This document shows, one piece after another, positions 311-44,414 of a DNA stretch of 64,000 nt. Positions within the stretch are counted from its first letter, which is position 1, and every line of letters begins with the position of its first letter. The position numbers were made by a program, and so were the translations under genes. The notes beneath the pieces were generated by a model, which ran no database searches, was not told the DNA's origin, and worked only from the letters and a program-made list of their open reading frames with translations. The DNA is from Curtobacterium sp. ZW137 (GTDB lineage: Bacteria > Actinomycetota > Actinomycetes > Actinomycetales > Microbacteriaceae), in NCBI RefSeq assembly GCF_003762905.1, contig NZ_RJKS01000001.1, forward strand, positions 930,001 through 994,000. The letters are read 5' to 3'.

Positions 311-1642
311 ATGACCGAGAACGACGCCGCGCAGTGGCGGTTCGAGACCACGCAGGTCCACGCCGGCGCACAGCCGGACCCGACCACGGGTGCCCGGGCC
401 ACGCCGATCTACAAGACGACCTCGTACGTCTTCGCGAACTCGGACGAGGCGCGTGACCTCTTCGCCCTCGCCAAGCCGGGCAACATCTACTCGCGCATCA
501 TGAACCCGACGAACGACGTCCTCGAACAGCGCATCGCGGCGCTCGAGGGTGGTTCCGGTGCGCTCCTCGTCGCCTCCGGCCAGGCCGCCGAGACGTACGC
601 CGTGCTGAACATCGCGCAGGCCGGCGACCACATCGTGTCGTCGTCGTCGATCTACGGCGGCACCTACAACCTGTTCAAGTACACGCTGGCGCGCCTCGGC
701 ATCGAGACCACCTTCGTCGAGGACCAGGACGACCCCGAGGAGTGGCGCCGCGCGGTCCGCCCGAACACGAAGCTGTTCTTCGCGGAGACCATCGGCAACC
801 CGAAGATCAACGTCCTCGACATCACCACCGTCGCGAACATCGCGCACGAGTCCGGCGTGCCGCTCATCGTCGACAACACGATCGCGACGCCGTACCTGAT
901 CCGTCCGTTCGAGCACGGGGCCGACATCGTGGTGCACTCCGCGACGAAGTTCCTCGGTGGACACGGCACCGTCATCGGCGGCGTCATCGTCGACGGCGGC
1001 ACCTTCCCGTGGTCGCAGCACCCGGAGAAGTTCCCCGAGTTCAACACGCCGGACCCCTCGTACCACGGGGCCGTCTTCGCGGAGGCGGTCGGCAACTCGC
1101 TGGCCTACATCATCAAGGCGCGCGTGCAGCTGCTCCGCGACCTCGGTGCCTCGAGCTCCCCGGACACGGCGTTCGCGCTGCTGCAGGGCATCGAGACGCT
1201 CTCGCTCCGCATCGAACGGCACGTCGCGAACGCGCAGGAGATCGCGGAGTGGCTCGACCGCCACCCCGACGTCGCCACGGTCGCGTACGCCGGGCTGCCG
1301 ACCTCGCCCTGGTACGGCGCCGCCACGCGGTACGCGCCGAAGGGCGTCGGCGCGGTGCTGTCGTTCGAGCTCAAGGGCGGTGTCGACGCGGGCCGGGCGC
1401 TCGTGGACAACCTGTCGCTGTTCTCGCACCTCGCGAACATCGGCGACGTGCGCTCGCTCGTCATCCACCCGGCGTCCACGACGCACTCGCAGCTCACGCC
1501 CGAGCAGCAGCTGACGACCGGTGTCACGCCGGGGCTCGTCCGCCTGTCGGTCGGCATCGAGAACGTCGAGGACCTCAAGGCGGACCTCGAGGCCGGGCTC
1601 GCCGCAGCCCGTGCCGTCGCGCAGGAGGGCCTCCGCGCGTAG
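311..1642 (+). CDS. metY: O-acetylhomoserine sulfhydrylase MetY (copy 1)
   Basis: A 443-residue PLP enzyme of the Cys/Met metabolism family. It condenses O-acetylhomoserine with sulfide, or another thiol, to give homocysteine and acetate in the cytoplasm. The PLP lysine is about K213 in the motif VVHSATKFLGGHG, and the family motifs SRIMNPTND and GIETLSLRIERH are present; length is normal. ATG 311 has a GGAGCACGAG ribosome site just upstream. A TAGCGT hexamer at 222-227 could be the -10, giving a leader of about 75 bases. metX follows after a repeat-filled 295-base gap, so the two form the direct-sulfhydrylation branch of methionine synthesis. A diverged paralogue lies at 39961. No SAM riboswitch could be recognised in the leader. 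Confidence 0.95.
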   Translation: MTENDAAQWRFETTQVHAGAQPDPTTGARATPIYKTTSYVFANSDEARDLFALAKPGNIYSRIMNPTNDVLEQRIAALEGGSGALLVASGQAAETYAVLNIAQAGDHIVSSSSIYGGTYNLFKYTLARLGIETTFVEDQDDPEEWRRAVRPNTKLFFAETIGNPKINVLDITTVANIAHESGVPLIVDNTIATPYLIRPFEHGADIVVHSATKFLGGHGTVIGGVIVDGGTFPWSQHPEKFPEFNTPDPSYHGAVFAEAVGNSLAYIIKARVQLLRDLGASSSPDTAFALLQGIETLSLRIERHVANAQEIAEWLDRHPDVATVAYAGLPTSPWYGAATRYAPKGVGAVLSFELKGGVDAGRALVDNLSLFSHLANIGDVRSLVIHPASTTHSQLTPEQQLTTGVTPGLVRLSVGIENVEDLKADLEAGLAAARAVAQEGLRA

Positions 1643-1937: not shown

Positions 1938-3137
1938 ATGGACTGGCAGACGACTCCCGAGGACTCCGTGCCGTCCACCCTGGTGCCGGGCACCGCACTC
2001 GGCACACTGGGGAAACCCCCGGTCACCGGTGCCTGGCGCCCTGGTGACCACCCCGGATCCCGGCACTTCACCGCACTCGGCGAGCAGTGGGTCCGCGGCG
2101 GCCGCCTGCCGAGCGTCCGGATCGCCTACGAGACCTGGGGCGAACTGAACGCGGCTCGGGACAACGCGATCGTGGTGTTCCACGCGCTCACCGGCGACTC
2201 CCACGTGGCGGGCGCAGCCGGCCCCGGGCACCGCACCGCCGGGTGGTGGGGCGACGTCGTCGGCCCCGGGCGCGCGATCGACACGGACCGGTGGTTCGTC
2301 GTCGCACCGAACATGCTCGGCGGGTGCCAGGGCTCGACGGGGCCGTCGTCGGTGTCCCCGGACGGCGTCGAGTGGGGCTCCCGGTTCCCGTTCGTCACCG
2401 TGCGGGACCAGATCGCCGCGCAGGCCCAGCTCGCCGACGCGCTCGGCATCGACACGTTCGCCGCGGTCGTCGGCGGCTCCATGGGCGGGATGCACGCGCT
2501 GGAGTTCGCCGCCTCGTACCCGTCGCGGGTGGCGCGGCTGGCCGTCCTGGCCAGCACGGCGCAGACCACCGCCGACCAGATCGCCGCGAACTCGCTGCAG
2601 CGCGCCGCGATCCAGATGGACCCCGGGTTCGCCGGCGGCGACTACTTCGAGGCCGACCCCGGCGACGGTCCCTCCCGCGGGCTGTCCCTCGCCCGGCGGA
2701 TGGCGATGATGACGTACCGCGCGTCCGACGAGCTGAACGGGCGCTTCGACCGCTCCTGGCAGTCCGACGTGTCCCCGCTCGGCGACGACGGACGGTTCTC
2801 GGTGGAGAGCTACCTCGACTTCCACGGGAACAAGTTCACCCGGCGCTTCGACGCGTCCACCTACGTGACGCTGACGCACGCGATGGACTCGCACGACCTC
2901 GGCGCGGGGCGGGGCGGTGTCGCTGCGGCGCTCGGGCGGATCACGGCGCGGACCCTGGTCGTCGGGATCTCGAGCGACCGGCTGTTCCCGGTGGAGGACC
3001 AGCACCGCATCGCCGCGGGGATCCCGGACACGCTCGACGGTGACCGGGCCGCGGTGATCGAGAGCGAGTTCGGGCACGACGGGTTCCTCATCGAGCACGA
3101 GGCGGTCGGGGCGCACCTGCGGCGGCTGCTGGGCTGA
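1938..3137 (+). CDS. metX: Homoserine O-acetyltransferase MetX
   Basis: A 399-residue alpha/beta-hydrolase-fold enzyme that transfers acetyl from acetyl-CoA to homoserine, supplying O-acetylhomoserine to MetY. The nucleophile elbow GGSMGG places the catalytic serine near residue 181. The C-terminal pieces SSDRLFP and EFGHDGFL carry the expected Asp and His of the triad, and NMLGGCQGSTGPSS is typical of the family. ATG 1938 is preferred over the in-frame ATG 1926, because GGGAG at about 1920-1924 is too close to the earlier codon and the family N-terminus fits the later one. It lies downstream of metY and is probably co-regulated with it. Confidence 0.93.
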   Translation: MDWQTTPEDSVPSTLVPGTALGTLGKPPVTGAWRPGDHPGSRHFTALGEQWVRGGRLPSVRIAYETWGELNAARDNAIVVFHALTGDSHVAGAAGPGHRTAGWWGDVVGPGRAIDTDRWFVVAPNMLGGCQGSTGPSSVSPDGVEWGSRFPFVTVRDQIAAQAQLADALGIDTFAAVVGGSMGGMHALEFAASYPSRVARLAVLASTAQTTADQIAANSLQRAAIQMDPGFAGGDYFEADPGDGPSRGLSLARRMAMMTYRASDELNGRFDRSWQSDVSPLGDDGRFSVESYLDFHGNKFTRRFDASTYVTLTHAMDSHDLGAGRGGVAAALGRITARTLVVGISSDRLFPVEDQHRIAAGIPDTLDGDRAAVIESEFGHDGFLIEHEAVGAHLRRLLG

Positions 3138-8509: not shown

Positions 8510-8538
8510 AGTGTAGACCGCTCCAAACACCCACGGAA
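8510..8538 (-). promoter_or_regulatory. Candidate promoter of the MFS gene
   Basis: On the minus strand TTCCGT (8538-8533) is followed after 17 bases by TACACT (8515-8510). The -10 is good but the -35 is weak, so this is only a candidate. Confidence 0.3.
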
Positions 8539-8577
8539 GACACCGACACGAAACGATTCGAGCGGGCGTCCTGCAGG

Positions 8578-8766: not shown

Positions 8767-8892
8767 GATCGCGATCTCCTCGTCGTCATCGGGCCACCGG
8801 GTGCGGCTCGATGAACCCCATGAGACACCCGACCACCGACATCCGCGGGAGGCCTCCGGCGTGTCGGCGACCCGCCGGAGGACACCCCCGAT

Positions 8893-9888: not shown

Positions 9889-10014
9889 GTGGTGCTCCCC
9901 CTGATGACGCCACGGATGTGGACGTCCTCACGCTAGGAGAGCATCTCTCACGCAGCCAACTCCCAGTCGACCCCAGATCGGGGCACAGGGTCCCGGGCGT
10001 GCACGCCGGGAGAC

Positions 10015-10323
10015 TCAGGCGTCGAGCGCCGCTTCGAGCCGCTCGATCTTGCCGTCCAGCTCACCGGTGTGTCCGGGCCGGATGTCGGCCTTGAGCACGA
10101 GCGAGACGCGGGTCCCGAAGGGCAGGACGGCGTCGGTCGCGGCCTTCACCACGGCCATGCACTCGTCCCACGAACCCTCGATCTCGGTGAACATCGAGGA
10201 GGTGCGGTTCGGCAGCCCGGACTCCCGCACGACCCGCACTGCGGCGGCGACCGCATCGTGGACGGAGCCGTCGGAGGACGCGGACGGGCCGCCGGACGGA
10301 GCGATGGAGAACGCGACGATCAT
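10015..10323 (-). CDS. Thiamine-binding protein (UPF0045/MTH1187 family)
   Basis: A 102-residue protein of the small ferredoxin-like-fold family that binds hydroxymethylpyrimidine or thiamine. Family-like pieces are MIVAFSIAPSGG at the start, VVRESGLPN, and the ending DIRPGHTGELDGKIERLE. Length is typical (about 100 residues). Its start overlaps the stop of the upstream membrane glycosyltransferase gene (ATGA at 10320-10323), so they are co-translated. The pairing with a glycosyltransferase has no obvious metabolic reason. Confidence 0.8.
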   Translation of the reverse strand: MIVAFSIAPSGGPSASSDGSVHDAVAAAVRVVRESGLPNRTSSMFTEIEGSWDECMAVVKAATDAVLPFGTRVSLVLKADIRPGHTGELDGKIERLEAALDA

Positions 10324-11582: not shown

Positions 11583-11588
11583 CGGATG

Positions 11589-11594
11589 AGCGTA
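11589..11594 (-). promoter_or_regulatory. -10 hexamer of the GT87 gene (leaderless)
   Basis: TACGCT on the minus strand, six bases from GTG 11582. Confidence 0.5.
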
Positions 11595-11661
11595 GCGAGC
11601 ACCGGATGAGCGGAGCGGCGACACCCAGCACTTCCCGAGAGTGACGTGTCACCGTCTCCCC

Positions 11662-12417
11662 GTGACCACGAACGGGACCCCCGAGCACCCGCGGAGCGGC
11701 AACGGGCGCCAGCCGAAGCCCACCCGCCGCCGCCGCACCGCCACCATCTGGATCTCCGTCGCCGCAGCCGTCGTCGTCCTCGGCGTCGCCGGCGTCCTGA
11801 TCGGCACGAACGTGTACTCGAACACCGAGAACGCGAAGGCCTCGGCCGCACCGAGCGTCGCCGCCAGCCGCGCCCCCTCGACGCTCGATGCGAGCGACCT
11901 CGCGGGCACCTGGACCGTCGGCGGGGACTCGGAGGCCGGCTACCGCCTGCACGAGGTGCTGAACGGTTCGGACGTCACGGTCACCGGCCGCACCGACAGC
12001 GTGACGGGCACCGCCACGGTGGACGGCTCCTCGATCACCGCGGCCGCGATCACGGTGCAGGTCGCCGACATCGCCACCGACTCCGCCCAGCGCGACTCGT
12101 ACTTCCGCGACTCCGCGCTCGACACCTCGGCGTTCCCCACCGCGACGTTCACGCTCACCGGTCCGATCGCCGACGCGGTCCCCACCGGTTCCGGTACGAA
12201 GCAGGTCGAGGCGAGCGGGAACCTGACGCTCCACGGCGTCACGAAGGCGGTCACCGCGACGCTCGAGGTCGGCCTGAACGGCGACAGTGTCGACATCTCC
12301 GGCTCGATCCCGATCACCTTCGCCGACTACGGCGTGCAGGCCCCGAGCCTCGGGTTCGTCAAGGTCGACGACGACGGCACGGTCGAGTTCCTCGTCCACG
12401 CGACGCCCGCGGGGTGA
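11662..12417 (+). CDS. YceI-family lipocalin-like protein, membrane-anchored
   Basis: About 251 residues. A basic N-terminus (PTRRRRTATIW) leads into one transmembrane anchor (SVAAAVVVLGVAGVLIGTNV), then a YceI beta-barrel domain. The domain shows AGTWTV at its start, SYFRDSALDTSAFPTATF in the middle, and the family hallmark GNLTLHGVTKAVTATLEV. YceI proteins bind polyisoprenoid lipids; here the domain should be outside the cell. GTG 11662 is preferred; GTG 11641 is the alternative. Its stop lies 7 bases from the convergent GH16 gene. Confidence 0.85.
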   Translation: MTTNGTPEHPRSGNGRQPKPTRRRRTATIWISVAAAVVVLGVAGVLIGTNVYSNTENAKASAAPSVAASRAPSTLDASDLAGTWTVGGDSEAGYRLHEVLNGSDVTVTGRTDSVTGTATVDGSSITAAAITVQVADIATDSAQRDSYFRDSALDTSAFPTATFTLTGPIADAVPTGSGTKQVEASGNLTLHGVTKAVTATLEVGLNGDSVDISGSIPITFADYGVQAPSLGFVKVDDDGTVEFLVHATPAG

Positions 12418-12424
12418 CGTCCGC

Positions 12425-13216
12425 CTAGGAACGGTCCCAGGTCTTCACCCAGTCGATCTCGAGGTGCCCTGGCTTCCCCCAGTTGCCGATCTGGAACATG
12501 AACCGGTGCGCCGTGGTCGGCACGTGCTGTGTCACCGTGAGGACGATCTGCCCGTCCACGTAGTAGCGGACCGCCTCCCCCGGGATCCACTCGGTCGTGT
12601 AGGTGTGCCACTGCCGCCACGTCGCGTCCGTGTGCAGCCCGACCGCGCTCCGTTCCTGGCCCTTCACCATCGAGTGACTGAACGCGCCGACGGTCCCCTG
12701 GAACGTGCCCTCGGGGAAGTCGACCTCCCCCTCGGACCAGACGTTCGAGGTCGGCCACAGCAGGAACGCGGCACCGTTGCCGTCGCCCCCGGTGGCCCGG
12801 GCCCGGACGCTGAACGTCCCGCCGACGTGTCCCCACGCGCCCGTCGGGGTGCCGAACGTGCCGGCCGCCCCGCGCTTGCCGTCCATCGCGACGTCCATGT
12901 AGCCGTCGTGCGCGCTGATGATCTCGTTCGACCAGTACCGGTTGGCCATGCCGTCCGGGTACGGCTGCCAGGACCCCGCGTAGGTGGTGGCGAACTGCCC
13001 ACCAGCAGCTGCCGGGGTGTCGAAGTCCTCGGAGAAGGTCGGGGCGGCGCCGTTCGCCGGCACGGTGGGCGTCGGGGTCGGCGCGGACACCGACGTCGCG
13101 GAGGGCGAGGCGGGGTCGCCCACCCACCCGCGGGCATCGGCCGTGGAGACGGTGCCGAGGGTGACACCGGCGGCGATGACCGCGGCGAACACGAGCAGTG
13201 ACCTGGAGACCTTCAT
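12425..13216 (-). CDS. Secreted glycoside hydrolase family 16-like protein
   Basis: A 263-residue protein with a signal peptide (MKVSRSLLVFAAVIAAGVTL), a Ser/Thr/Pro linker to about residue 60, and a concanavalin-like GH16 domain. The catalytic signature ExDxxE is present as EVDFPE at residues 164-169, supplying nucleophile and acid/base glutamates. The end, HLEIDWVKTWDR, matches the family's last beta strand. It is expected to act on beta-glucans or similar polysaccharides outside the cell; plant-polymer degradation is plausible but inferred. The start ATG 13216 sits directly before the signal peptide. Confidence 0.82.
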   Translation of the reverse strand: MKVSRSLLVFAAVIAAGVTLGTVSTADARGWVGDPASPSATSVSAPTPTPTVPANGAAPTFSEDFDTPAAAGGQFATTYAGSWQPYPDGMANRYWSNEIISAHDGYMDVAMDGKRGAAGTFGTPTGAWGHVGGTFSVRARATGGDGNGAAFLLWPTSNVWSEGEVDFPEGTFQGTVGAFSHSMVKGQERSAVGLHTDATWRQWHTYTTEWIPGEAVRYYVDGQIVLTVTQHVPTTAHRFMFQIGNWGKPGHLEIDWVKTWDRS

Positions 13217-13526
13217 CGGTCGTCCCGGCGTCGGGTGGGAGCTGCGGTGCTGCCGTCGTCGTCATCGACGTGGCGCACGGCGCGGTGTGCGTCCTGCATG
13301 GTCGTGGATCGCTTTCTGGGTCGAGCGGTTCCGGGGACCGGACCGGCCCGTGGTTGCGGTCCGGCGGTGTCCCTCACAGGTCTGTCTACGCGTCCACCGG
13401 GTCCACCACGAGGACCCCGCACCCCGCCAGCGGGATCGGTGCGGGCTCCCGCGCCGCATGCGTGATCCCGCGGTCGTTGCGGCTTCCCGCGAGCACGCGC
13501 CGCGTCCCCGCGGGTGCGCTGATGCC

Positions 13527-13568
13527 TTCCGACACCGCAGGAGTCGATCGACCGGCGCGGTGTCGGAA
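13527..13568. terminator. Hairpin with 12-bp perfect arms
   Basis: TTCCGACACCGC (13527-13538) pairs with GCGGTGTCGGAA (13557-13568); the 18-base loop holds TCGATCGA. It may end the nnrD transcript on the minus strand, or be regulatory. Confidence 0.4.
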
Positions 13569-13748
13569 CATGCGCACGCACGTGCCGTGGACGCACACCC
13601 CACCGGCCTGGAGGCTCGGCACCCGTCCGCCACCGAGCCTCCCGGCCGGCCGTGGTCGCGACCAGTGCACGCGGCGGCCACCGCGCGCCGCTCACGCCCG
13701 CCGCGCTCCCGCCGCGCGCCGCGCGCCGCGCCGCACACCGACAACCGT

Positions 13749-13764
13749 GCTGTCGTACGACAGC
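13749..13764. repeat. Core palindrome of repeat family A, locus 3
   Basis: The 16-bp sequence GCTGTCGTACGACAGC, followed by GACCCTGTCGC. It is identical to the core at 1704-1719 and 31133-31148. Confidence 0.8.
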
Positions 13765-13807
13765 GACCCTGTCGCTCCGGCTCGGCAGCGGGCGACCCCG
13801 GCGCGCC

Positions 13808-14653
13808 TCAGGCGGGCGCGTCCCCGGTCACGAGGAGGTCACGGACGACACCGGGCAGCGCCTCGATGAGCGTCGTCATCGTGAACGGCCCACCGCCGGA
13901 CGCCCGCCGCGCCGCGGTGCCGTGCACGACCGCCGCGGCCGCCGCGAGGTGCGCGAGGTCCGCCGGACCGACCTCCCCGGAGCCCGCCCGGGTGGCCACG
14001 AGCGCCCCGAGCACCCCACCGAGGACGTCCCCCGCGCCGGCGGCGGCGAGCCACGGCGTGGCGGAGGACGCGACGAGCCGCACGGACCCGTCCGGGGTGA
14101 CGACGTGCGTGTCGGAGCCCTTGAGGAGCACGACGCTCCCGGTCTGCTCGGCGGCGCGGAGCGCGGAGCCCCGCGGGTCCTCCTCGACTGCATCACGGGA
14201 GACGTGCAGCAGCGCGGCGAGCTCCCCCGCGTGCGGCGTCAGCACCGCGAGCGGTCCGAGGTCGACCAGCGGGATCGCCCCGGCGTCGACGACCACCGGG
14301 ACGCCGTCCTCGGACGCGTGCTCGAAGGCGGCAGCGGTCGCCGGGTCGAGCGAACCGAGCGAGGACGCCGAGATCCCGGACCCGACCAACCAGGCCTGCA
14401 CGCGGCCGATGCCGGACACGACCTCGGGACGGCGGGCGAGCACGAAGTCCGTCGCACGGTCGGGTCCGACGTACCGGACCATCCCCACCCCGGTGTGCAC
14501 GGCCGCGTCGACGCCCATGATCGCCGCACCCGGGTAGGCGGCCGAACCGGTCGCGACGCCGAGCACCCCTCGCCGGTACTTCGTGGACTCCCCGGTCGGC
14601 GCGGTCGTCCACGCGGCGGCGTCGGACACGGAGAAGGGCACGAAGTCGTTCAT
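13808..14653 (-). CDS. nnrD: ADP-dependent NAD(P)H-hydrate dehydratase NnrD
   Basis: A 281-residue ribokinase-fold enzyme that repairs damaged NADHX/NADPHX using ADP. Family motifs are RRGVLGVATGSAAYPGAAIM near the N-terminus, the substrate region LTPHAGELAALL, and the catalytic ADP-binding motif AAGAGDVLGGVLGAL. The epimerase partner NnrE, often fused in other bacteria, is not part of this protein. ATG 14653 has TAACGT seven bases upstream, predicting a leaderless message; this -10 overlaps that of the divergent HAD gene. Confidence 0.9.
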   Translation of the reverse strand: MNDFVPFSVSDAAAWTTAPTGESTKYRRGVLGVATGSAAYPGAAIMGVDAAVHTGVGMVRYVGPDRATDFVLARRPEVVSGIGRVQAWLVGSGISASSLGSLDPATAAAFEHASEDGVPVVVDAGAIPLVDLGPLAVLTPHAGELAALLHVSRDAVEEDPRGSALRAAEQTGSVVLLKGSDTHVVTPDGSVRLVASSATPWLAAAGAGDVLGGVLGALVATRAGSGEVGPADLAHLAAAAAVVHGTAARRASGGGPFTMTTLIEALPGVVRDLLVTGDAPA

Positions 14654-14660
14654 CGACCCC

Positions 14661-14670
14661 ACGTTACGGT
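14661..14670. promoter_or_regulatory. Overlapping divergent -10 hexamers (nnrD and HAD gene)
   Basis: Minus-strand TAACGT (14666-14661) lies 7 bases from nnrD, and plus-strand TACGGT (14665-14670) lies 7 bases from the HAD start. The two hexamers share two bases, so RNA polymerase can occupy only one at a time. Confidence 0.55.
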
Positions 14671-14677
14671 GGAGCGC

Positions 14678-15322
14678 ATGAGCCTGTTCCTGCCCGGTCG
14701 TGTCGTCGTGTTCGACTACGGCGAGGTGATCAGCCGCACGCCCACCGCCGCGCGGGACGCCCTGCTCGAGGCCACCGGGCTGCCGGAGGACGAACTCTTC
14801 CCCGTCTACCAGGAGCTCCGCCACGACCTGGACCGCGGCGACCTCAGCGTGCTGGAGTACTGGCGCGCGATCGCTGCCCGCACCGGCCGGTCCTGGTCCG
14901 TCAGCGAGATCCACCGGCTCTGGGCGATCGACTACACGGGCTGGTTCGAGGTCGACCCCGCGGTGCTCGACCTCGTCGAGGAGCTGCACGACGCCGGCAC
15001 CCGGCTGGCGCTCCTGTCGAACGCCGGGTTCGACTTCGGGGACCCGTACCGGCGGTCACCGATGGGGTCGCTGTTCGAGACCGTCGTGGTGAGCGCCGAG
15101 GAACACGTGCTGAAGCCCGACCTGTCCATCTACCGCGACACCTGCGAGCGTCTGGGAATCGAGCCGTCGCAGATGGTGTTCGTGGACAACAGGGCCGAGA
15201 ACGCCGCCGGCGCGGAAGCGATCGGGGCGGTCGGCCACCACTACACGTCACCAGCGCTGCTCCGGGGGTTCCTGGAGGAGCTGTCGGTGACGGCCACCCC
15301 GCACGAAGGAGCCACCGCGTGA
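14678..15322 (+). CDS. HAD-superfamily hydrolase (YihX-like)
   Basis: A 214-residue haloacid-dehalogenase-fold protein, probably a sugar-phosphate or small-molecule phosphatase. Motif I is VVFDYGEVI, with the nucleophile Asp followed by Gly where many HADs have a second Asp, as in the YihX/epoxide-hydrolase-N branch (FDLGNVI). Motif II is LLSNAG, motif III the Lys in HVLKPDLSIY, and motif IV FVDNRAEN. ATG 14678 fits a leaderless promoter. The stop overlaps the next gene's GTG (GTGA, 15319-15322), so the two are coupled. Substrate unknown. Confidence 0.85.
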   Translation: MSLFLPGRVVVFDYGEVISRTPTAARDALLEATGLPEDELFPVYQELRHDLDRGDLSVLEYWRAIAARTGRSWSVSEIHRLWAIDYTGWFEVDPAVLDLVEELHDAGTRLALLSNAGFDFGDPYRRSPMGSLFETVVVSAEEHVLKPDLSIYRDTCERLGIEPSQMVFVDNRAENAAGAEAIGAVGHHYTSPALLRGFLEELSVTATPHEGATA

Positions 15323-16401
15323 CGCACGCCCTGTTCGAGCCGATCACCATCCGCGACCTGACGGTCCGCAACCGCATCTGGGTCTCGCCGATGTGCCAGT
15401 ACTCGGTCGAGCAGCAGGACGGCGTCCCGACGCCGTGGCACCTCGTGCACCTCGGCGGGTTCGCCAAGGGCGGCGCCGGCGCGGTCGTCGTCGAGGCCAC
15501 CGGGGTCGTGCCGGAGGGACGGATCAGCCCGCAGGACCTCGGCCTCTGGAACGACGAGCAGCGCGACGCGTTCCGCCCGATCGTCGACTTCATCCACTCG
15601 CAGGGCGCCGCGGCCGGCGTGCAGCTCGCCCACGCGGGCCGCAAGGCCTCGACCTACCGCCCCTGGGAATCGTCCCACGGCACGGTCCCGGCGTCCGAGG
15701 GCGGCTGGACCGCCGTCGGCCCGTCCGCCGAGGCGTTCCCGGGGTACGACGTCCCGCGCGAGCTCTCCACCGAGGACATCCGCCTCGTCGCGGTCGGCTT
15801 CGCCGTCGCCGCACGTCGTGCCGTGGAGGCGGGCTTCGACCTCGTCGAGCTGCACGCCGCGCACGGGTACCTCCTGCACCAGTTCCTCTCCCCGCTGAGC
15901 AACCACCGCACCGACGAGTTCGGGGGCTCGCTCGAGAACCGGGCCCGCGCGCTGCTCGACGTGGTCGACGCCGTGCGTGCCGAGGTCGGCGAGGGCTTCC
16001 CGATCGTCGTCCGCTTCTCCGCGACCGACTGGACCGACGGCGGTCTGACGCTCGACGAGGTCACCGAGGTCGCCCGCTGGGCCGCCGAGCACGGTGCCGA
16101 CCTCGCCGACGTCTCGACCGGCGGCAACGTCGCGAGTGCGCCGATCCCCGTCGGCCCGGGCTACCAGGTACCCTTCGCCGCGGAGATCAAGCGGAACGCC
16201 GGCATCGGCACGATCGCCGTCGGGATGATCTCCGAGGCGTTCCAGGCCGAGCAGATCGTGGCGACCGGGCAGGCCGACGTGGTGATGGTCGGGCGTGAGT
16301 TCCTCCGTGACCCGGGCTTCCCGCTCCGTGCGGCGGTCGAGCTCGGGGTCGAACTCGACTACGAGCCCCAGCAGTACCACCGAGCAAGCGTCACGAAGTA
16401 G
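15319..16401 (+). CDS. Old Yellow Enzyme-family flavin oxidoreductase (YqjM-like)
   Basis: A 360-residue TIM-barrel FMN enzyme that reduces activated C=C bonds with NAD(P)H. YqjM-subclass signs are MCQYSVEQQDG near the N-terminus (the redox-tuning Cys), QLAHAGRKAS, the catalytic pair in ELHAAHGYLLHQFLSPLSNH, and SLENRARALLDVVDAVRAEV. The C-terminal FMN-phosphate site reads ADVVMVGREFLRDPGFPLRA. Length is normal. It is translationally coupled to the HAD gene. The physiological substrate is unknown; the class is linked to xenobiotic and stress reduction. Confidence 0.9.
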   Translation: MTHALFEPITIRDLTVRNRIWVSPMCQYSVEQQDGVPTPWHLVHLGGFAKGGAGAVVVEATGVVPEGRISPQDLGLWNDEQRDAFRPIVDFIHSQGAAAGVQLAHAGRKASTYRPWESSHGTVPASEGGWTAVGPSAEAFPGYDVPRELSTEDIRLVAVGFAVAARRAVEAGFDLVELHAAHGYLLHQFLSPLSNHRTDEFGGSLENRARALLDVVDAVRAEVGEGFPIVVRFSATDWTDGGLTLDEVTEVARWAAEHGADLADVSTGGNVASAPIPVGPGYQVPFAAEIKRNAGIGTIAVGMISEAFQAEQIVATGQADVVMVGREFLRDPGFPLRAAVELGVELDYEPQQYHRASVTK

Positions 16402-16496
16402 GGCGGATTCTCGGGTTCCGGCCCGACCTCGTGATTACGATGATGACCACTGTGGACGATCCTCCGAATCCTTCTTCGCCCCACCACTCATCCGGC

Positions 16497-16511
16497 GCTC
16501 ACTCAGTGAGC
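16497..16511. promoter_or_regulatory. 15-base palindrome upstream of the CNNM operon
   Basis: GCTCACTCAGTGAGC is a perfect dyad 71 bases before the start at 16583. It could be an operator; no regulator is known. Confidence 0.3.
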
Positions 16512-16582
16512 TGCCCTGACTCGTCGTGTGCCCGCAGCGCTGTCCGCTCGCGGAGCACGTCCAGCCCCCGGGGGTGGACCCG

Positions 16583-17953
16583 ATGAGCCCCATCGACATC
16601 GTCATGCTCGTCGGTGGCATCCTGCTGACGCTCGGCACCGGCGTCTTCGTCGCGTCGGAGTTCGCACTCGTGAACCTCGACCGCGCCGACGTCGAGGCGC
16701 GCCGTGACCGCGGGGAGCCCGGCCTCGCGCCGGTCATCGGTGCGCTCAAGGTCACCTCGACGCACCTGTCCAGCGCACAGCTCGGCATCACGCTGACGAC
16801 GCTGCTGACCGGCTACCTGCTCGAGCCGTCGATCGCGAAGCTGCTCGAGGCACCGTTCCTGGCGCTGGCGCTCCCCGAGGGGATCGTCGAGACGGTCGGC
16901 TCGATCGTGGCGCTCGTCATCGCGACGCTGCTCTCGATGATCCTCGGCGAGCTCGTGCCGAAGAACTTCGCGCTCGCGCTGCCGCTGCAGACCGCGAAGC
17001 TCGTGGTGCCGCTGCAGATCGCGTTCACGACGGTCTTCAAGCCAGCGGTCGCCGTGCTGAACGGCACCGCGAACGCCGTGCTCCGCGCGATCGGCATCGA
17101 GCCGCAGGAGGAGCTCTCCGGTGCGCGCAGCGCCGAGGAGCTCACCTCGCTGCTCCGTCGTTCGGCGTCCGAGGGCTCGCTCGAACAGGACACCGCGACG
17201 CTCCTCCAGCGCACGCTGTCCTTCTCCGAGCTCGACGCCAGCGACGTGATGACCCCGCGCCCGCGGTTGTCCACGATCCGGGTCTCGGAGTCCGCCGAGG
17301 ACGTCATCACGCTCGCCCGCCGGACCGGCTTCAGCCGCTTCCCCGTCATCGAGGAGGACGCGGACGACGTCGTCGGGATCGTGCACGTCAAGCAGGCCGT
17401 CGCCGTCCCGCGTGAGAAGCGTCCGGAGGTCCCCGTCGGCGCGCTGATGACCGACGCCGAGCGGGTCCCCGAGACGATGCCCGGTGACACGCTCCTCACC
17501 GAGGTGCGCGGTCGCGGCTACCAGATGGTCATCGTCGTCGACGAGTACGGCGGCACCGCCGGGGTCGTCACGCTCGAGGACCTCATCGAGGAGATCGTCG
17601 GCGAGGTGTCGGACGAGCACGACCGCGCCCGCATCGACGTCGTCCGTTCCCGCAACTGGCTGACCTTCCCCGGGCTGCTCCGTCCCGACGAGCTCGAGGA
17701 CCGCGCCGGGGTCAAGGTCCCCGAGGACGGCCCCTACGAGACCGTCGGCGGCTTCATCATGTCGACACTCGGGCGGCTGCCGGTCGTCGGCGACGAGGTC
17801 CCGCTCGAGGACGGCGTGTTCCGCGTCGAGCGCCTCGACGGACGGCGGGTCGACCGGGTCCGCTGGACGCCGACCCCCACGGACACCCCGCCCGGCGGCG
17901 TGACGATCCCGAACTCGTCCGCGAAGAGCAAGCAGAAGGAGAGCACCCGATGA
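16583..17953 (+). CDS. CNNM/CorC-family membrane protein with CBS pair (1)
   Basis: About 456 residues. An N-terminal CNNM transmembrane domain with the family motif [20 protein letters not shown] is followed by [16 protein letters not shown] pair follows ([52 protein letters not shown]) and then the CorC/HlyC C-terminal domain ([20 protein letters not shown]). These proteins are implicated in Mg2+ or other divalent-cation efflux; the older 'hemolysin' name is not functional evidence. ATG 16583 starts just before the first helix; an earlier in-frame codon (16526) would add 19 unlikely residues. Coupled to the next gene by ATGA overlap. Confidence 0.88.
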
Positions 17954-18990
17954 GCAGCGACTGGTGGGGCATCTTCTGGCTGTTCGTCCTGCTCGCGGGC
18001 AACGCCTACTTCGTCGCGGCCGAGTTCGCCGTGATCTCCGCACGCCGCTCCCAGATCGAGCCCCGTGCCGAAGAGGGCTCCCGCGCCGCGCAGATGACCC
18101 TGTGGGCGATGGAGCACGCGACCCGGATGCTCGCGACCACCCAGCTCGGCATCACCGTGTGCTCGCTGCTCATCCTCAACGTCTCCGAGCCGGCGATCCA
18201 CCACCTGCTCGAGGTCCCGCTGCACCTGACCGGGTGGAGCGTCGAGGTGATCGGCATCGTGGCGTTCGTCTTCACGCTGCTGCTCGTCTCGTTCCTGCAC
18301 GTGGTCTTCGGCGAGATGGTGCCGAAGAACATCTCGTTCTCGATGCCCGACCGTGCGGCCCTGCTCCTCGTGCCGACGCTCTGGTACATCGGCCACGGCC
18401 TGCACTGGGTCGTCGTCGGCCTCAACGAGATCGCGAACGCCGTGCTCCGGCTGTTCAAGGTGGAGCCGAAGGACGAGGCGGTCAGCGCCTACACCGTCGA
18501 GGAGGTGCAGACCATCGTCGAGCAGTCCCGCCGCGAGGGCACGCTGTCCGACGACGGCGGCACGCTCCGGATGGCGTTCGAGTTCACCGAGAAGAAGGTC
18601 CGGGACATCGCAGTGCCGATGTCCGAGCTGGTCACGCTCCCCGAGGACGCCACCCCCGCTGACGTCGAACGCGCGGTCGCGCAGCGCGGGTTCTCCCGCT
18701 ACGTGCTGACCGGCGAGACCGGTGAGCCGACCGGCTACGTGCACGTCAAGGACGTCATCGACCTGCGCCCCGACGAGTTCGACGACCCGGTGCCCCCGAA
18801 GCGCATCCGCCAGCTCATCTCGCTCTACACCGAGATGGACCTCGAGGACGCGCTTGCCACGATGCGCGCCGCAGGCCGCCACGTGGCGCGGGCGTTCGAC
18901 GCGGACGGCCGGACGACGGGCGTCCTGTTCCTCGAGGACATCCTCGAGGAGCTCGTCGGCACCGTCGAGGACGCGACCAGACGCCGGTAG
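17950..18990 (+). CDS. CNNM/CorC-family membrane protein with CBS pair (2)
   Basis: A 346-residue paralogue of the preceding protein, overlapping it by ATGA. It has the CNNM motif YFVAAEFAVISARRSQIEPR and EMVPKNISFSMP, then a CBS-type region (VPMSELVTLPEDATPADVER, GFSRYVLTGETGEPTGYVHV, TTGVLFLEDILEELVGTV). It lacks the CorC C-terminal domain present in the first protein, ending shortly after the CBS pair. Two unequal CNNM subunits in tandem are common in actinobacteria and suggest a heteromeric ion transporter. Confidence 0.87.
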   Translation: MSSDWWGIFWLFVLLAGNAYFVAAEFAVISARRSQIEPRAEEGSRAAQMTLWAMEHATRMLATTQLGITVCSLLILNVSEPAIHHLLEVPLHLTGWSVEVIGIVAFVFTLLLVSFLHVVFGEMVPKNISFSMPDRAALLLVPTLWYIGHGLHWVVVGLNEIANAVLRLFKVEPKDEAVSAYTVEEVQTIVEQSRREGTLSDDGGTLRMAFEFTEKKVRDIAVPMSELVTLPEDATPADVERAVAQRGFSRYVLTGETGEPTGYVHVKDVIDLRPDEFDDPVPPKRIRQLISLYTEMDLEDALATMRAAGRHVARAFDADGRTTGVLFLEDILEELVGTVEDATRRR

Positions 18991-39630: not shown

Positions 39631-39702
39631 CCCGAACGGGCACCGCACGCCGCTGGTCGTCCGCCGACCGCCGCCCGCCGGTTTACGTTCCGGTTCCTGG
39701 CC

Positions 39703-39752
39703 GTGACCGATCCGGTTCACGATTCCCGGGGATCGTGAACCGGATCGGTCAC
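39703..39752. terminator. 21-bp perfect-arm cruciform after the NUDIX gene
   Basis: 39703-39723 (GTGACCGATCCGGTTCACGAT) mirrors 39732-39752 exactly, with an 8-base loop. Outer arms GGTTCCT/AGGAACC extend it further out. Terminator of the M50-NUDIX operon or regulatory. Confidence 0.6.
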
Positions 39753-39772
39753 CGCGCAGAAGGAACCTGGGG

Positions 39773-39826
39773 TGCCGTGCCGTGCCGTGCCGTGCCGTGC
39801 CGCGCCGCGCCGTGCCGCGCCGTGCC
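39773..39826. repeat. Pentanucleotide tandem repeat (TGCCG/CGCCG)n
   Basis: About eleven 5-bp units; the first six are identical (TGCCG). Prone to slippage; it sits 134 bases before metY copy 2. Confidence 0.75.
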
Positions 39827-39960
39827 AGGTCGGCGCCGTCGAACACCGTCCCACCGGGATGCCACGGCCGCCCCCATCCCGTCGTAACCGGGGGCCGCAA
39901 TGGAGTATCCGCGGAGCGAGGCCTGCGAGAGTACGGACAACAGATCATCGGAGGAATGCC

Positions 39961-41349
39961 ATGTCGAACGACGACCACGGTTTCGCGACCGAGCAGGTGC
40001 ACGGCGGGTTCGTTCCCGACGCCGGTCACGGTGCGAGGGTGCCCGCGATCCACATGTCGTCCGGCTTCCTCTTCGACGACTTCGACCAGGCGCGCGACCG
40101 CTTCGCCGGAACCGACGACGGCTACACGTACACCCGTCTCGGCAACCCCACGAACGGCGACGTCGAACGCCGCATCGCCCTGCTCGAACGCGGCTCCGAG
40201 TCGATCCTGGTGTCGAGCGGGCAGGCCGCGGCGACGGTGGCGTTCCTCGGGCTGCTGCAGGCCGGCGACCACGTCGTCAGCGCCCAGAGCATCTACGAGG
40301 GCACCCGCGGGCTGCTCCTCCAGAACCTCGGCCGGCTCGGCATCGAGGTGGACTTCGTCGCCGACGCGCGGGACCTCGACGCATGGGCGGCGGCGGTCCG
40401 TCCGAACACGAAGGCCTTCTTCGCGGAGACGATCCCGAACCCGAAGAACGACGTGCTCGACATCACCGGCGTCGCGGAGACCGCGCACCGGGCGGGTGTC
40501 CCGCTCATCGTGGACAACACCCTCGCGACGCCGTACCTGGTCCGCCCGATCGAGCACGGCGCCGACGTCGTCGTGCACTCCGCGTCGAAGTTCCTCAGCG
40601 GCCACGGCTCCGGCCTCGGCGGCGTGGTCGTCGACGGCGGCACGTTCGACTGGTCCGCCTCGCCGGAGCGCTGGACGCACCTGACGAACCCCGAGCGGTC
40701 CCTCGGCGGACAGAGCTACGTGGAGAAGTACGGCAACCGCGCGTACATCGTCTTCGCGCGTGACGTCATCAGCTCCCGCATCGGCCCGACGCCGTCCCCG
40801 TTCAACGCGTTCCTGCTCCGCCAGGGCATCGAGACCCTGAGCCTGCGGGTGGAGCGGCACAGCGCGAACGCGCTGGCCATCGCCGAGTGGCTGGACCAGC
40901 AGCCCGAGGTGACGAGCGTCGACCACGCGGGTCTGGCCTCCAGTCCGTACCACGACCTGGCGGAGCGGTACCTGCCCCGGGGAGCCGGGTCCGTGTTCGC
41001 GTTCACGCTCGCCGGCGGTGAGCCGGCCGCACGCGACTTCATCAACGCGGTGCAGCTGTTCAGCCGGATGACGCACCTGGGTGACGTCCGGTCGCTCATC
41101 CTGCACCCGGCGACGACGACGCACGCCGGCCGCACGCCGGAGGAACGGGCCGCGCAGGGCATCGACGACGGCCTGATCCGTCTGTCGGTCGGCATCGAGG
41201 ACGTCGCGGACCTGCTCCGCGACCTGGAACGCGGGTTCGCCGCGGTGCGTGGGGAAACCGGTCCGGAGGCTCGGCTCGGCTCCGGGACGGAGCTCGAGTC
41301 CATGGGACACACGGTCCCGGAGCGTCACGTGATCGCGGAGGAGATCTGA
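39961..41349 (+). CDS. metY: O-acetylhomoserine sulfhydrylase-like enzyme (copy 2)
   Basis: A 462-residue PLP enzyme, a diverged paralogue of the protein at 311. The PLP lysine is near K210 (VVVHSASKFLSGHG), with NTLATPYLVRPIEHG and GIETLSLRVERH. It has an extended tail ending RHVIAEEI. ATG 39961 follows GGAGGA with good spacing. The next gene, a flavin monooxygenase, begins two bases after its stop, a tight operon. The enzyme may accept methanethiol, sulfide or sulfite-derived sulfur released by its partner (inference). Confidence 0.9.
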   Translation: MSNDDHGFATEQVHGGFVPDAGHGARVPAIHMSSGFLFDDFDQARDRFAGTDDGYTYTRLGNPTNGDVERRIALLERGSESILVSSGQAAATVAFLGLLQAGDHVVSAQSIYEGTRGLLLQNLGRLGIEVDFVADARDLDAWAAAVRPNTKAFFAETIPNPKNDVLDITGVAETAHRAGVPLIVDNTLATPYLVRPIEHGADVVVHSASKFLSGHGSGLGGVVVDGGTFDWSASPERWTHLTNPERSLGGQSYVEKYGNRAYIVFARDVISSRIGPTPSPFNAFLLRQGIETLSLRVERHSANALAIAEWLDQQPEVTSVDHAGLASSPYHDLAERYLPRGAGSVFAFTLAGGEPAARDFINAVQLFSRMTHLGDVRSLILHPATTTHAGRTPEERAAQGIDDGLIRLSVGIEDVADLLRDLERGFAAVRGETGPEARLGSGTELESMGHTVPERHVIAEEI

Positions 41350-41351
41350 CG

Positions 41352-42659
41352 ATGGCGGACCTGCAGCACTTCGGGTACTTCTTCTCGCGCGGGTTCGGCC
41401 CGCAGGCGTGGGGGCGGTCCGACTGGGACTGGGGCCACGACTGGACGAAGCCGGACCTGTACCAGCAGTCCGTGCGGGCGCTGGAGCAGGCCGGGATGGA
41501 CCTGGTCATCGCGGAGGACGCGATCTCGCTCGGGAACCCGTCGACGCTCGACCTGCGCATCCGGCAGGCGTACGGCGGCCCGAAGCACGACCCGCTGCTG
41601 CTCGCCCCGTACCTGTTCGCCGCGACCTCGCACATCGGGATCGCGCCGACCGTGAACGCGGGGATCACCCCGCCGTACCTCGCCGCACGGCAGTTCGCCA
41701 CGCTCGCGCACCTGTCGTCGGAGCGCCTCGGCATCAACGTCGTGACCGACGTCGGGAGCGCCCGGCACGCCGGCCTGCCGCCGCTCCCCCACGACCAGGC
41801 GTACGACCGCGCCGAGGAGTGGATCACCCTGCTCCGCCGGTTCTGGCACTCCTGGGGGTCCGACGGGTACGTCGGGTCACGCCCCGACTGGCACTTCGCG
41901 GACGGGCACGAGCTCGACGCGTTCCACCACGAGGGCGCGTACTTCACCGCCGACGGGCCGCTCAACGCGCTGCCGCTCGACTCCGATCCGATCGTCGTCT
42001 CCCCCGGCGGCTCCGGCCGCGGACTCGGGTTCGCCGGGACCCATTCGGACGTCCAGCTCGCGCTGGCGCCGCTGTCGGCGTCCGCGGTGTCGGACTACCG
42101 GGCGCGCGTGCTGTCGGCCGCTGCGGACGCCGGGCGCTCCCCGGACGAGCTCCGCATCCTGTTCGTCCTGAAGCCGGAGATCGCGGTGTCCCCGGAGGAG
42201 GCCGATCGCATCGTGGAAGCCTCCCTGCACCCGTCCGACGACGACCTCCGCACCGCCGCCATCGCGTGGTCGAGCGACTCCGAGACCGACCTGCTGGCGC
42301 TCGACCTCGACGCCCCGATCCCCGCGGGGACCTTCGGCGACCACGTCTCAGCGGGGACGATCCGGGGCCTCGTCGGTGACACACCGGACGCACCGCTCCG
42401 CGAGCTCCTGACGCGGAAGGCCCGCAAGGGGCGGGTGTCCTCCCGCTCGGGCTTCGTCGGGACCGCCGGGGAGTTCGCGGACTTCATCGAGGAGCTCGGC
42501 GCGGACGCGGACAACGACGGGATCATCTTCTCCGGCGACCTGCACCCGGCCCAGGTCCACCGGATGTTCGGCGACCTGGTACCGGTGCTGCGGCAGCGCG
42601 GACTCCTCCGGCGCGAGTACGGCGCCGGAGGGATCCGCGCGAACCTGTTCGACTTCTGA
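41352..42659 (+). CDS. LLM-class FMN-dependent monooxygenase (NtaA/SnaA/DmoA family)
   Basis: A 435-residue bacterial-luciferase-like monooxygenase. Family signs are FGYFFSRGFGPQAWG at the N-terminus, DLVIAEDAISLG, SSERLGINVVTDVGSARHAG and VVSPGGSGRGLGFAG. The group includes enzymes cleaving aminopolycarboxylates, dibenzothiophene sulfone or dimethyl sulfide with FMNH2 from a separate reductase; no reductase gene is visible nearby. The tight operon with a sulfhydrylase points to a sulfur compound as substrate, for instance one yielding methanethiol or sulfite (inference). Confidence 0.88.
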   Translation: MADLQHFGYFFSRGFGPQAWGRSDWDWGHDWTKPDLYQQSVRALEQAGMDLVIAEDAISLGNPSTLDLRIRQAYGGPKHDPLLLAPYLFAATSHIGIAPTVNAGITPPYLAARQFATLAHLSSERLGINVVTDVGSARHAGLPPLPHDQAYDRAEEWITLLRRFWHSWGSDGYVGSRPDWHFADGHELDAFHHEGAYFTADGPLNALPLDSDPIVVSPGGSGRGLGFAGTHSDVQLALAPLSASAVSDYRARVLSAAADAGRSPDELRILFVLKPEIAVSPEEADRIVEASLHPSDDDLRTAAIAWSSDSETDLLALDLDAPIPAGTFGDHVSAGTIRGLVGDTPDAPLRELLTRKARKGRVSSRSGFVGTAGEFADFIEELGADADNDGIIFSGDLHPAQVHRMFGDLVPVLRQRGLLRREYGAGGIRANLFDF

Positions 42660-42664: not shown

Positions 42665-44332
42665 TCAGTGGCGGATCGGGTCCACCACCGAGGACTCCTC
42701 GGTGTCGCGGACGTCCTCGGCGGTGCGGAGGATCTCCTCACGCGGGGACGCCGAGTTGATCGCCCAGTAGTAGATGATCAGCGAGAAGACGGCGACCACG
42801 ACGATGTCGATCCAGAGCGGGAACACCGGGTTCGTCAGCGGACCGAAGTCACTGAGGAACACGATCAGCCCCATGCCGACCAGGTAGGGCAGCAGCCACT
42901 GGGCCGCCTTCCAGTCCCACCGCGGCCGGACGCTCGAAGCACCGCGGAACACGTTGTTGAGGATGATCACCGCGGCGCCGATCAGGATCGCGACGCCGAG
43001 CTTCCAGTCGGTGTCCCACCCGGTCCAGAGGATGATGAGGTTCGCGACGATGAACGCGATCGGTGAGAGCACCGTCGCCGCGGGCATCCGGTACGGACGC
43101 TCGATCTCGGGGATCCGCTTCCGGAACGCCCCGAGTGCGAGCGGCGCCCCGGCGTACATGAGCACCGACGCGCTCGTGATGAGGCTGACGAGCCCCTGCC
43201 ACGACGGGAACGGCGCGAAGCAGGCGCACCCGACGACGAACGCCGTGATGAGACCGACCCACGGCACGCCCTGCTTGGTCGTCCACTCGAACGCCTTCGG
43301 GAAGTAGCCGTTGCGGCTGAGGCCGTAGGAGATGCGCGACGTCGCCGTGACGTAGATCAGGCCGGTGCCTGCCGGCGAGATGATCGCGTCGATGAAGATG
43401 ATCACGGCCAGCCAGGTGATGCCCGCCGCCATCGCGATGTCCGCGAAGGGACCCGTGTACTTCGTGAAGTCCGCGGTCGCCCACGAGCCCTGGATCACCT
43501 CGGGTCGCAGCACGCCGAGGAACACGACCTGCAGCAGCAGGTAGATCACGAGGCCGATGAGCACCGACCCGATGACCGCGCGCGGGATGTCGCGCTTCGG
43601 GTTCTTGGCCTCGCCGGCGAGCTGGTCCGCCTGCTCGAAGCCGAGGAACGCGAAGATGATGCCCGACGTCGACACCGCCGCGAGGATGCCCTTCGCGCCC
43701 TCGGGCATGAAGCCGTCCGCCGCCGTGAAGTTCGAGCCGTGGAAGCCGCTGAACGCCAGGACGATGATGACGAGCAGCGGGATCGCGACCTTCCACCACG
43801 TGGCGGCAGAGTTCGTGTTCGCGAGGATCTTCACGCTGAGCAGGTTGATCACGGTGACGACCGCCATCAGCAACACCGCCACCGCTATGCCCGCGCCCGT
43901 CAGCAGCTGCTGCGTCTCGCCGTCCACCGTCGTGGTGTGCAGCCAGGGGTGCGCGAACTGCCAGTGCTGTGCGTACTTGATCATGGCCTCCACCTCGATC
44001 GGGGCGACCGTGACCGACTGCAGCCACGAGAACCAGCCGAACGAGGCTCCGGCGACGCCGCCGAAGGCGATGTGGGGGAACCGCGCTGTTCCGCCCGCGA
44101 TCGGGAACATGCCGCCGAGTTCGGCGTGCACGAGTGCGAGGACGAGGATCGCGACCCCGCCGATGAGCCACGAGATGATCGCCGCGGGGCCGGCGGTCTT
44201 GAGGGCTTCCTGCGAGCCGAAGAGCCAGCCGGAACCGATGATGGATCCGGTCGAGGCCCAGATGAGGCCGATGAAGCCGACGTTGCGCTTCAGCCCGGAA
44301 TCGGGCAGCGCCTGCGAGGTGGATGTAGCCAC
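42665..44332 (-). CDS. APC-superfamily amino-acid permease
   Basis: A 555-residue transporter with about twelve helices. The first helix motif reads GFIGLIWASTGSIIGSGWLF, and FAFLGFEQADQLAGEAKNPK is the APC consensus after helix 6. It most resembles proton-coupled amino-acid symporters. GTG 44332 is chosen because GGAGC lies five bases upstream; an ATG further upstream would add residues without helix content. It converges on the monooxygenase with a 5-base gap. A 7-11-7 dyad upstream may be its operator. Substrate unknown; sulfur amino acids would fit the neighbours but are unproven. Confidence 0.87.
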   Translation of the reverse strand: MATSTSQALPDSGLKRNVGFIGLIWASTGSIIGSGWLFGSQEALKTAGPAAIISWLIGGVAILVLALVHAELGGMFPIAGGTARFPHIAFGGVAGASFGWFSWLQSVTVAPIEVEAMIKYAQHWQFAHPWLHTTTVDGETQQLLTGAGIAVAVLLMAVVTVINLLSVKILANTNSAATWWKVAIPLLVIIVLAFSGFHGSNFTAADGFMPEGAKGILAAVSTSGIIFAFLGFEQADQLAGEAKNPKRDIPRAVIGSVLIGLVIYLLLQVVFLGVLRPEVIQGSWATADFTKYTGPFADIAMAAGITWLAVIIFIDAIISPAGTGLIYVTATSRISYGLSRNGYFPKAFEWTTKQGVPWVGLITAFVVGCACFAPFPSWQGLVSLITSASVLMYAGAPLALGAFRKRIPEIERPYRMPAATVLSPIAFIVANLIILWTGWDTDWKLGVAILIGAAVIILNNVFRGASSVRPRWDWKAAQWLLPYLVGMGLIVFLSDFGPLTNPVFPLWIDIVVVAVFSLIIYYWAINSASPREEILRTAEDVRDTEESSVVDPIRH

Positions 44333-44414
44333 AGTTGCTCCTGTCGAGATGAACCACGGCCCCTTTGCAGGGGTCGTGGTCATCGACTCTGGCACTGTGC
44401 GGCGTTCTCGGACG

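Follow-up and report, generated by a model that had tools for sequence, protein, structure and literature searches.

A MetY paralogue and a luciferase-like monooxygenase encoded side by side in Curtobacterium: a gene pair most likely devoted to sulfur scavenging

Why a second sulfhydrylase gene should be kept directly beside a flavin monooxygenase gene is the question raised by one locus of Curtobacterium sp. ZW137. The locus lies in a 64,000-nucleotide stretch of contig NZ_RJKS01000001.1 (positions 930,001 to 994,000), called the window here, from a genome of 3.9 Mb in 9 contigs whose closest relatives, judged by this locus, are Curtobacterium. The first gene, metY2, encodes a divergent paralogue of O-acetylhomoserine sulfhydrylase; the second encodes a luciferase-like monooxygenase (LLM) that is named LLM-A in this paper. 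A sequence-only reading of the window had proposed that the monooxygenase is DmoA-like and releases methanethiol, which the sulfhydrylase converts to methionine in one step. The results presented here indicate that the pair is most likely a sulfur-scavenging unit. With moderate confidence, we read it as a release-then-trap operon, in which an FMNH2-dependent LLM-A would free reduced sulfur and MetY2 would fix it. No description of the pair was found in our searches of open-licence PMC texts.

A conserved gene pair

Both reading frames of the pair and the two-nucleotide gap (CG) between the metY2 stop codon and the ATG of LLM-A were confirmed, as was the MetX gene of the sequence-only reading, which begins with an ATG at position 1938 and passed two MetX models. 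A ribosome-binding-like site for LLM-A, GGAGGAG, is found inside the 3' end of metY2, and the GC content at codon position 3 is 0.94 in metY2 and 0.97 in LLM-A. The features concerned are as follows.

39961..41349, + strand: metY2, divergent O-acetylhomoserine sulfhydrylase paralogue of 462 aa (TIGR01326 over cut-off, PF01053)
41352..42659, + strand: LLM-A, luciferase-like FMN-type monooxygenase of 435 aa, putative C-S bond-cleaving oxygenase (PF00296)
39883..39928, + strand: promoter/operator-like element CGTAAC-N7-CGCA-N24-TGCGA upstream of metY2, from aligned loci
311..1642, + strand: metY1, housekeeping-type O-acetylhomoserine/O-acetylserine sulfhydrylase (NF005872, 801.3 bits against a cut-off of 703)
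1938..3137, + strand: metX, homoserine O-acetyltransferase (NF047917, 510.8 bits against a cut-off of 475)

Conservation of the pair, a check for which the sequence-only reading had called, was examined in fetched loci whose genes were called by a simple script based on GC at codon position 3, with the strand sometimes wrong. Among near relatives (the best 80 of 141 confirmed relatives), a MetY gene adjoins LLM-A in 79, and in the 80th (L070) the contig starts inside LLM-A. The two genes run in the same direction in 71 of these loci, separated by -4 to +11 bp in all but three (L043, L058 and L062; the L043 gap was excluded because the MetY2 frame is mis-extended there). In the other eight, from Cryobacterium, Subtercola, Galbitalea and Compostimonas, the genes are divergent with 121-146 bp between them, and the link between MetY2 and LLM-A therefore survives rearrangement.

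Because the near relatives had been chosen by closeness to the query, a family sample of 299 genomes of the host's family was added and searched with a profile, and a class-wide sample of 296 genomes was also used; in both, the five best candidates were scored per genome. At a threshold of 1e-60 the family sample gave 102 matches, comprising 71 above 690 bits (LLM-A), 28 at 389-452 bits (a sister subfamily, LLM-B) and three lower ones. MetY adjoins LLM-A in 64 of the 71 LLM-A genomes, 60 of them established by coordinates with a top-scoring MetY2 (at least 659 bits) and four by tblastn (G123, G225, G258 and G264). Seen from the side of MetY2, 60 of the 67 top-scoring genes adjoin LLM-A. Five of the remaining seven have other LLM genes no more than ~1 kb away, and in the four cases tested (L204, L205, L207 and L208) these score above the NtaA/DmoA cut-off. 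At L205 an SfnB-like oxidoreductase gene (275 bits, under cut-off) follows the MetY2-type and LLM genes. The pair is also present in named relatives such as Kineococcus and Quadrisphaera, which we take to lie outside the host's family. Chance adjacency is excluded by this conservation.

The promoter/operator-like element is conserved in an alignment of the window's own locus with 38 Curtobacterium-type loci, and similar sequence was recognized by eye in some other genera. Its exact composite form occurs once in the genome. As a marker of a wider regulon it was rejected, with six further places at two mismatches against five for a reversed control pattern, and the short operator alone occurs at chance frequency in the window. 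Outside the element, positions 39700-39836 upstream of metY2 carry a 28-nt near-perfect loopless palindrome followed by GTGCC/GCGCC repeats. The APC permease gene at 42665-44395 was considered as a further partner of the pair and dropped, as it was not detected next to many Curtobacterium pairs.

The two proteins and their relatives

MetY2 resembles MetY (best PDB match 4KAM, named 'O-acetylhomoserine sulfhydrylase MetC') in being an enzyme of cysteine and methionine metabolism of the pyridoxal phosphate (PLP)-dependent type that passes the same curated subfamily model, TIGR01326 for O-acetylhomoserine/O-acetylserine sulfhydrylases, with 516.2 bits against a cut-off of 495.1. It differs from MetY in failing the equivalog model NF005872 (561.5 bits against 703), whereas MetY1 passes both models, in sharing 55% identity with MetY1 of its own genome (54% with a third paralogue, MetY3), and in being tied to a monooxygenase gene. 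Residues Y57, R59, Y112, D185, K210 and R407 are invariant across the aligned relatives; K210 is presumably the PLP lysine, and the tyrosine and arginine residues are taken by us to be catalytic. The gene for MetY3 overlaps by 4 nt a gene for an SfnG-like LLM (L081:7932-10288, contig C4 of the window's genome) that scores 267.5 bits on TIGR04021, under the cut-off of 383, and these two genes are flanked by an ATP-grasp-like gene (weak RimK match) and ispE.

LLM-A belongs to the bacterial luciferase-like superfamily PF00296 (92 bits against a gathering cut-off of 27.9), and its AlphaFold model has a mean predicted local distance difference test (pLDDT) score of 85. The label NtaA/SnaA/DmoA-type given by the sequence-only reading holds in so far as TIGR03860 (NtaA/DmoA) is the best specific model, but the score of 221.6 bits falls short of the cut-off (279.7). 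In single-sequence comparison with the PDB, CmoJ/YtnJ is matched best (142.7 bits), and in profile matches BdsA comes first with 214.5 bits, against 199 for CmoJ and 176.5 for DmoA, the last ranking behind BdsA, CmoJ, the nitrilotriacetate (NTA) monooxygenase and RcaE. The top Foldseek match is BdsA/DszA at 26% identity. LadA, BdsA, HcbA1, RcaE, EmoA and CmoJ are matched in fold at Z 35.7-36.7; the top matches are tied, so the fold does not name the substrate of LLM-A, and the fold search was set aside as uninformative on substrate class. DmoA, at Z 34.0, lies below several enzymes with sulfur-free substrates (up to 36.7). By both sequence and modelled structure, then, LLM-A is no closer to DmoA, the dimethyl-sulfide monooxygenase of the same superfamily, than to CmoJ or BdsA, and the specific likeness to DmoA on which the methanethiol proposal leaned was not borne out.

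The two nearer relatives offer partial parallels. With CmoJ (YtnJ/MoxC), of S-alkyl-cysteine salvage in B. subtilis, LLM-A shares the NtaA/DszA-type flavin monooxygenase fold and a context of sulfur salvage, yet the two are only ~27% identical. In its pathway, CmoJ helps to regain cysteine by way of an N-acetylated sulfoxide, and the consulted portion of the source describes no sulfhydrylase step (PMC10863075). BdsA/DszA, the dibenzothiophene sulfone monooxygenase, acts in the 4S pathway, which ends in sulfite according to the part of the source consulted (PMC8557817), while the window's genome has no recognised sulfite reductase.

Enzymes of this kind would depend on a partner that reduces the flavin. 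A homologue of FMN reductase, 45-68% identical to an MsuE-type one, is located no more than ~170 bp from the pair in four of 65 regions of the family sample (L147, L155, L177 and L193) and also in L085, the MsuE-type family assignment having been tested for L116 and L177. No flavin reductase gene was seen next to the pair in the window, and four FMN_red matches are found elsewhere in its genome.

Sulfur context of the pair

Beyond the start residue, LLM-A contains only 2 cysteine and methionine residues in 434, and MetY2 only 3 in 461. The mean cysteine plus methionine content is 0.44% for LLM-A and 0.47% for MetY2 over 75 of the 79 loci (L036, L043, L044 and L075 were excluded because of problems with their frame or length), compared with 2.07% for the 45 predicted genes of the window, pair included, and with 1.66% (0.67-2.35) for seven further LLM proteins that the same genome encodes. 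According to the consulted part of one study (PMC8557817), sulfur-starvation proteins of Rhodococcus, including MetY, have a low sulfur content. Elsewhere in the window's genome, a cluster of LLM genes (L083, ~4000-18000; contig C1, 374-388 kb) includes three whose best match is NtaA/DmoA, two of them over cut-off, together with an SfnB-like oxidoreductase gene (under cut-off) and ABC transport genes; five proteins checked there contain 0-0.7% cysteine plus methionine.

Genes of the methionine-synthase type were found in the examined flanks of 7 of 65 family-sample regions and, in the partly shared set of near relatives, of 11 of 80, but in none of 27 LLM-B regions. They comprise MetF-MetE beside the pair in Frigoribacterium (MetE over cut-off), MesX-MesD in L040, L077 and L080 (family tested in L040), and a core-MetE-like gene with a weak family match that immediately precedes MetY2 in some loci, those of Clavibacter among them. 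In addition, an S-adenosylmethionine (SAM)-I riboswitch precedes the pair of Kineococcus (60.2 bits against a cut-off of 44.4).

The sulfur metabolism of the host was examined by family searches of its genome. PF01077 (sulfite/nitrite reductase) is absent from the window's genome and was found in 11 of 14 control genomes; PF01507 (3'-phosphoadenosine 5'-phosphosulfate (PAPS) reductase/CysD) is absent and was found in all 14 controls; MetH is absent and was found in 11 of the 14. Without PF01077 and PF01507, sulfite would have no recognised onward route in the host. The strongest PF01717 match of the genome, at 132 bits, is a MesD-type methionine synthase (634 bits, cut-off 392) that is 82% identical to MesD of Plantibacter and is preceded by MesX (PF08908, 482 bits). 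These two genes (L237:506-2577) are on contig C4, not on the contig of the window, and MesX-MesD is the genome's sole methionine synthase with a strong match; the second PF01717 match, 35 bits and over cut-off, is a core-MetE-like gene of uncertain function (L211:12924-14150). MesX/MesD is described as an oxygen-dependent, folate-independent methionine synthase in the portion of the source consulted (PMC7857596). Although it stands near or next to the pair in the three loci mentioned above, it is likely a downstream user and not part of the pair. The genome also encodes cystathionine beta-synthase beside a cystathionine gamma-synthase-type enzyme, both over cut-off.

Within the family sample, PF01077 is matched in 77 of 299 genomes and unmatched in 222. 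Split by score and frame length, the matches fall into 31 genomes with sulfite reductase (above 137 bits, frames of 573-681 aa) and 46 with presumed nitrite reductase; under this split, 268 of the 299 genomes lack a sulfite-reductase-type match. Among the 71 LLM-A carriers, 48 lack any PF01077 match and 66, the window's genome included, lack one of the sulfite-reductase type.

The sister subfamily provides a parallel arrangement. LLM-B is 42% identical to LLM-A and passes TIGR03860 (361.4 bits). In 27 of the 28 LLM-B genomes (G292, where the contig start cuts the gene, was left out), a gene of the cysteine-synthase/cystathionine beta-synthase family is located directly upstream on the same strand in all 27 regions, and an ammonia-lyase-family gene (PF00221) follows in 26, the contig ending there in the 27th. 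Of these regions, 21 have a GNAT acetyltransferase gene near LLM-B, 14 a three-part ABC importer of the polar-amino-acid type and three an FMN reductase gene. A class-level LLM-B match (L089) has no cysteine-synthase gene in the 1.5 kb upstream. LLM-A and LLM-B occur together in none of the 299 genomes (hypergeometric 3.3e-4, assuming independent genomes, which genomes are not), and within genera g37, g42 and g55 some genomes have the one and some the other.

The PF00221 protein of the LLM-B loci (L112-L138 and L089) is of interest in itself. The triad Ala-Ser-Gly forms the MIO cofactor of ammonia lyases. In 26 of 27 extracted sequences this triad is shortened to two residues (GSVG-xx-DL); the motif of L129 was not cleanly extracted. 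The protein may be a lyase without MIO, associated with a monooxygenase and with a gene of the cysteine-synthase family.

Weighing the explanations

For the cofactor, the substrate, the product and the order of steps we infer the following scheme. LLM-A would be the oxygenase component of a two-component monooxygenase that uses FMNH2 supplied by a separate flavin reductase, and would cut the C-S bond of an organic sulfur compound so that the sulfur is left reduced, as sulfide or a small thiol. MetY2 would serve as a dedicated O-acetylhomoserine sulfhydrylase that fixes the released sulfur onto O-acetylhomoserine provided by MetX. Its likeliest nucleophile would be sulfide, giving homocysteine, which MesX/MesD would then methylate to methionine; methanethiol, giving methionine directly, would be the second choice. 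Cysteine might be formed by transsulfuration through the cystathionine beta-synthase and cystathionine gamma-synthase-type genes of the host. A sulfur role is the best reading of the pair because the proteins are sulfur-poor, a minority of loci have methionine genes as neighbours, one pair is preceded by a SAM riboswitch, and sulfate and sulfite reduction are not recognised in the host. In this respect the proposal of the sequence-only reading stands, the pair being conserved and sulfur its probable business, apart from the DmoA likeness.

The product that reading had proposed, methionine made directly from methanethiol, is possible, but the putative activity from sulfide to homocysteine fits better and is the more likely. 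The methionine-synthase-type neighbours in relatives (MetF-MetE, MesX-MesD and the core-MetE-like gene) act on homocysteine, and the sister LLM-B has a partner of the cysteine-synthase family; sulfide would be the simplest nucleophile from which cysteine synthase and MetY could each make a useful product.

Several observations weigh against the sulfur-scavenging reading or parts of it. LLM-A does not reach the cut-off of its best specific model, and its fold neighbours LadA, HcbA1, RcaE and EmoA, which use sulfur-free substrates, are tied at Z 35.8-36.7. The low cysteine plus methionine content of the pair corresponds to the 9th percentile of the window's genes and to the 14th and 20th percentiles of 1467 predicted locus genes, pair copies included. 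MetY1 is even lower (0.23%), the SfnG-like protein contains 1.99%, and MetX, with 9 such residues in 398, is not sulfur-poor. Only a minority of loci, drawn from few lineages, have methionine-gene neighbours, and the Curtobacterium pairs showed none; the SAM riboswitch was detected in only one of 20 scanned loci, and an Rfam scan of the window returned only tmRNA, with no SAM riboswitch at the pair. Loss of sulfite reductase, tried as a predictor of LLM-A, was rejected, sulfite reductase being present in 5 of 71 carriers and in 26 of 228 other genomes (Fisher p=0.38, no association), and some PF01077 match, presumed nitrite reductases counted, occurs in 23 of the 71 carriers. LLM-A lacks an adjacent MetY in 7 of the 71 carriers (G056 and six genomes of genus g5), and in the class-wide sample LLM-A (above 690 bits) is confined to 5 of 296 genomes, all of the host's family. 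Finally, the partner of LLM-B reaches none of the curated cut-offs and has its highest score on the cystathionine beta-synthase model, which weakens the inference that sulfide is the nucleophile.

The steps may also run in the opposite order. MetY2 would then join a scavenged thiol (R-SH) to O-acetylhomoserine, giving S-R-homocysteine, and LLM-A would oxidatively remove R to leave homocysteine and an aldehyde, while the sister cysteine synthase would make S-R-cysteine for LLM-B. It speaks for this scheme that CmoJ/YtnJ, the best single-sequence PDB match of LLM-A, dealkylates N-acetyl-S-alkylcysteine sulfoxide according to the consulted part of the source (PMC10863075), that in co-directional loci of both systems the sulfhydrylase-type gene precedes the monooxygenase gene, and that the GNAT and ABC importer genes near LLM-B (21 and 14 of 27 regions) are gene types also described, in the portion of the source consulted, in the S-(2-succino)cysteine salvage operon of B. 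subtilis (PMC9706529). Against it, no sulfoxidase gene was seen beside the pair in the window, the order of the genes says little about the order of the reactions, eight pairs are divergent, and with methanethiol as the thiol MetY2 would already give methionine and LLM-A would be superfluous. We regard this order as unlikely. Slightly more doubtful still is a general thiol-scavenging route, in which the sulfhydrylase tags thiols onto O-acetylhomoserine (in the sister system, onto activated serine) and the luciferase-like monooxygenase strips the alkyl group to yield homocysteine (or cysteine). No description of such a route was found in the open-licence PMC texts searched; if it were true, a bacterium without sulfate assimilation could draw sulfur from many thiols, by a path dependent on oxygen down to methionine via MesX/MesD.

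Release of methanethiol by a dimethyl-sulfide-type LLM-A, followed by one-step synthesis of methionine by MetY2, would account for the same gene pair, and MetY is described as using methanethiol as a methionine precursor, with methanol as a side substrate, in the consulted part of one source (PMC7279501). DmoA is, however, not the nearest relative of LLM-A, and this route would bypass the methionine-synthase-type genes that neighbour the pair in relatives. Group C of the flavin monooxygenases includes the luciferase-like enzymes. None of the group C enzymes of A. baylyi showed detectable oxidation of dimethyl sulfide, as far as the consulted portion of that report goes (PMC13352529), and we consider the route improbable. 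Less probable still is that LLM-A frees sulfite from sulfonates or sulfones, in the manner of SsuD or MsuD, with MetY2 only co-regulated. The fold relatives of LLM-A do include BdsA/DszA, SfnG and MsuD, and six of the seven family-sample carriers that lack a MetY neighbour have an SfnG-like gene ~1-3 kb from LLM-A (68-78% identity to the SfnG-like partner of MetY3 in the window's genome), but most carriers of LLM-A have no sulfite-reductase-type match (66 of 71) or no PF01077 match at all (48 of 71). The least probable explanation is a sulfur-free substrate, the linkage reflecting shared regulation only: the family does include riboflavin lyase and alkane and chelator monooxygenases, but the sulfhydrylase linkage in two arrangements, the parallel sulfhydrylase-type partner in the sister subfamily and the low cysteine plus methionine content argue against it.

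If the release-then-trap reading holds, its significance lies in the sulfur supply of the host's family, which is an open question because most sampled genomes have no PF01077 match or none of the sulfite-reductase type. The proposed route would bypass sulfite, unlike 4S desulfurisation and the dimethyl sulfide routes as described in the consulted parts of the sources, and the pair is a candidate supplier of homocysteine for the oxygen-dependent MesX/MesD. A conserved unit of oxygenase and sulfhydrylase, together with a sister version of the cysteine-synthase type, would thus offer a concrete and testable answer to how this family obtains its sulfur.

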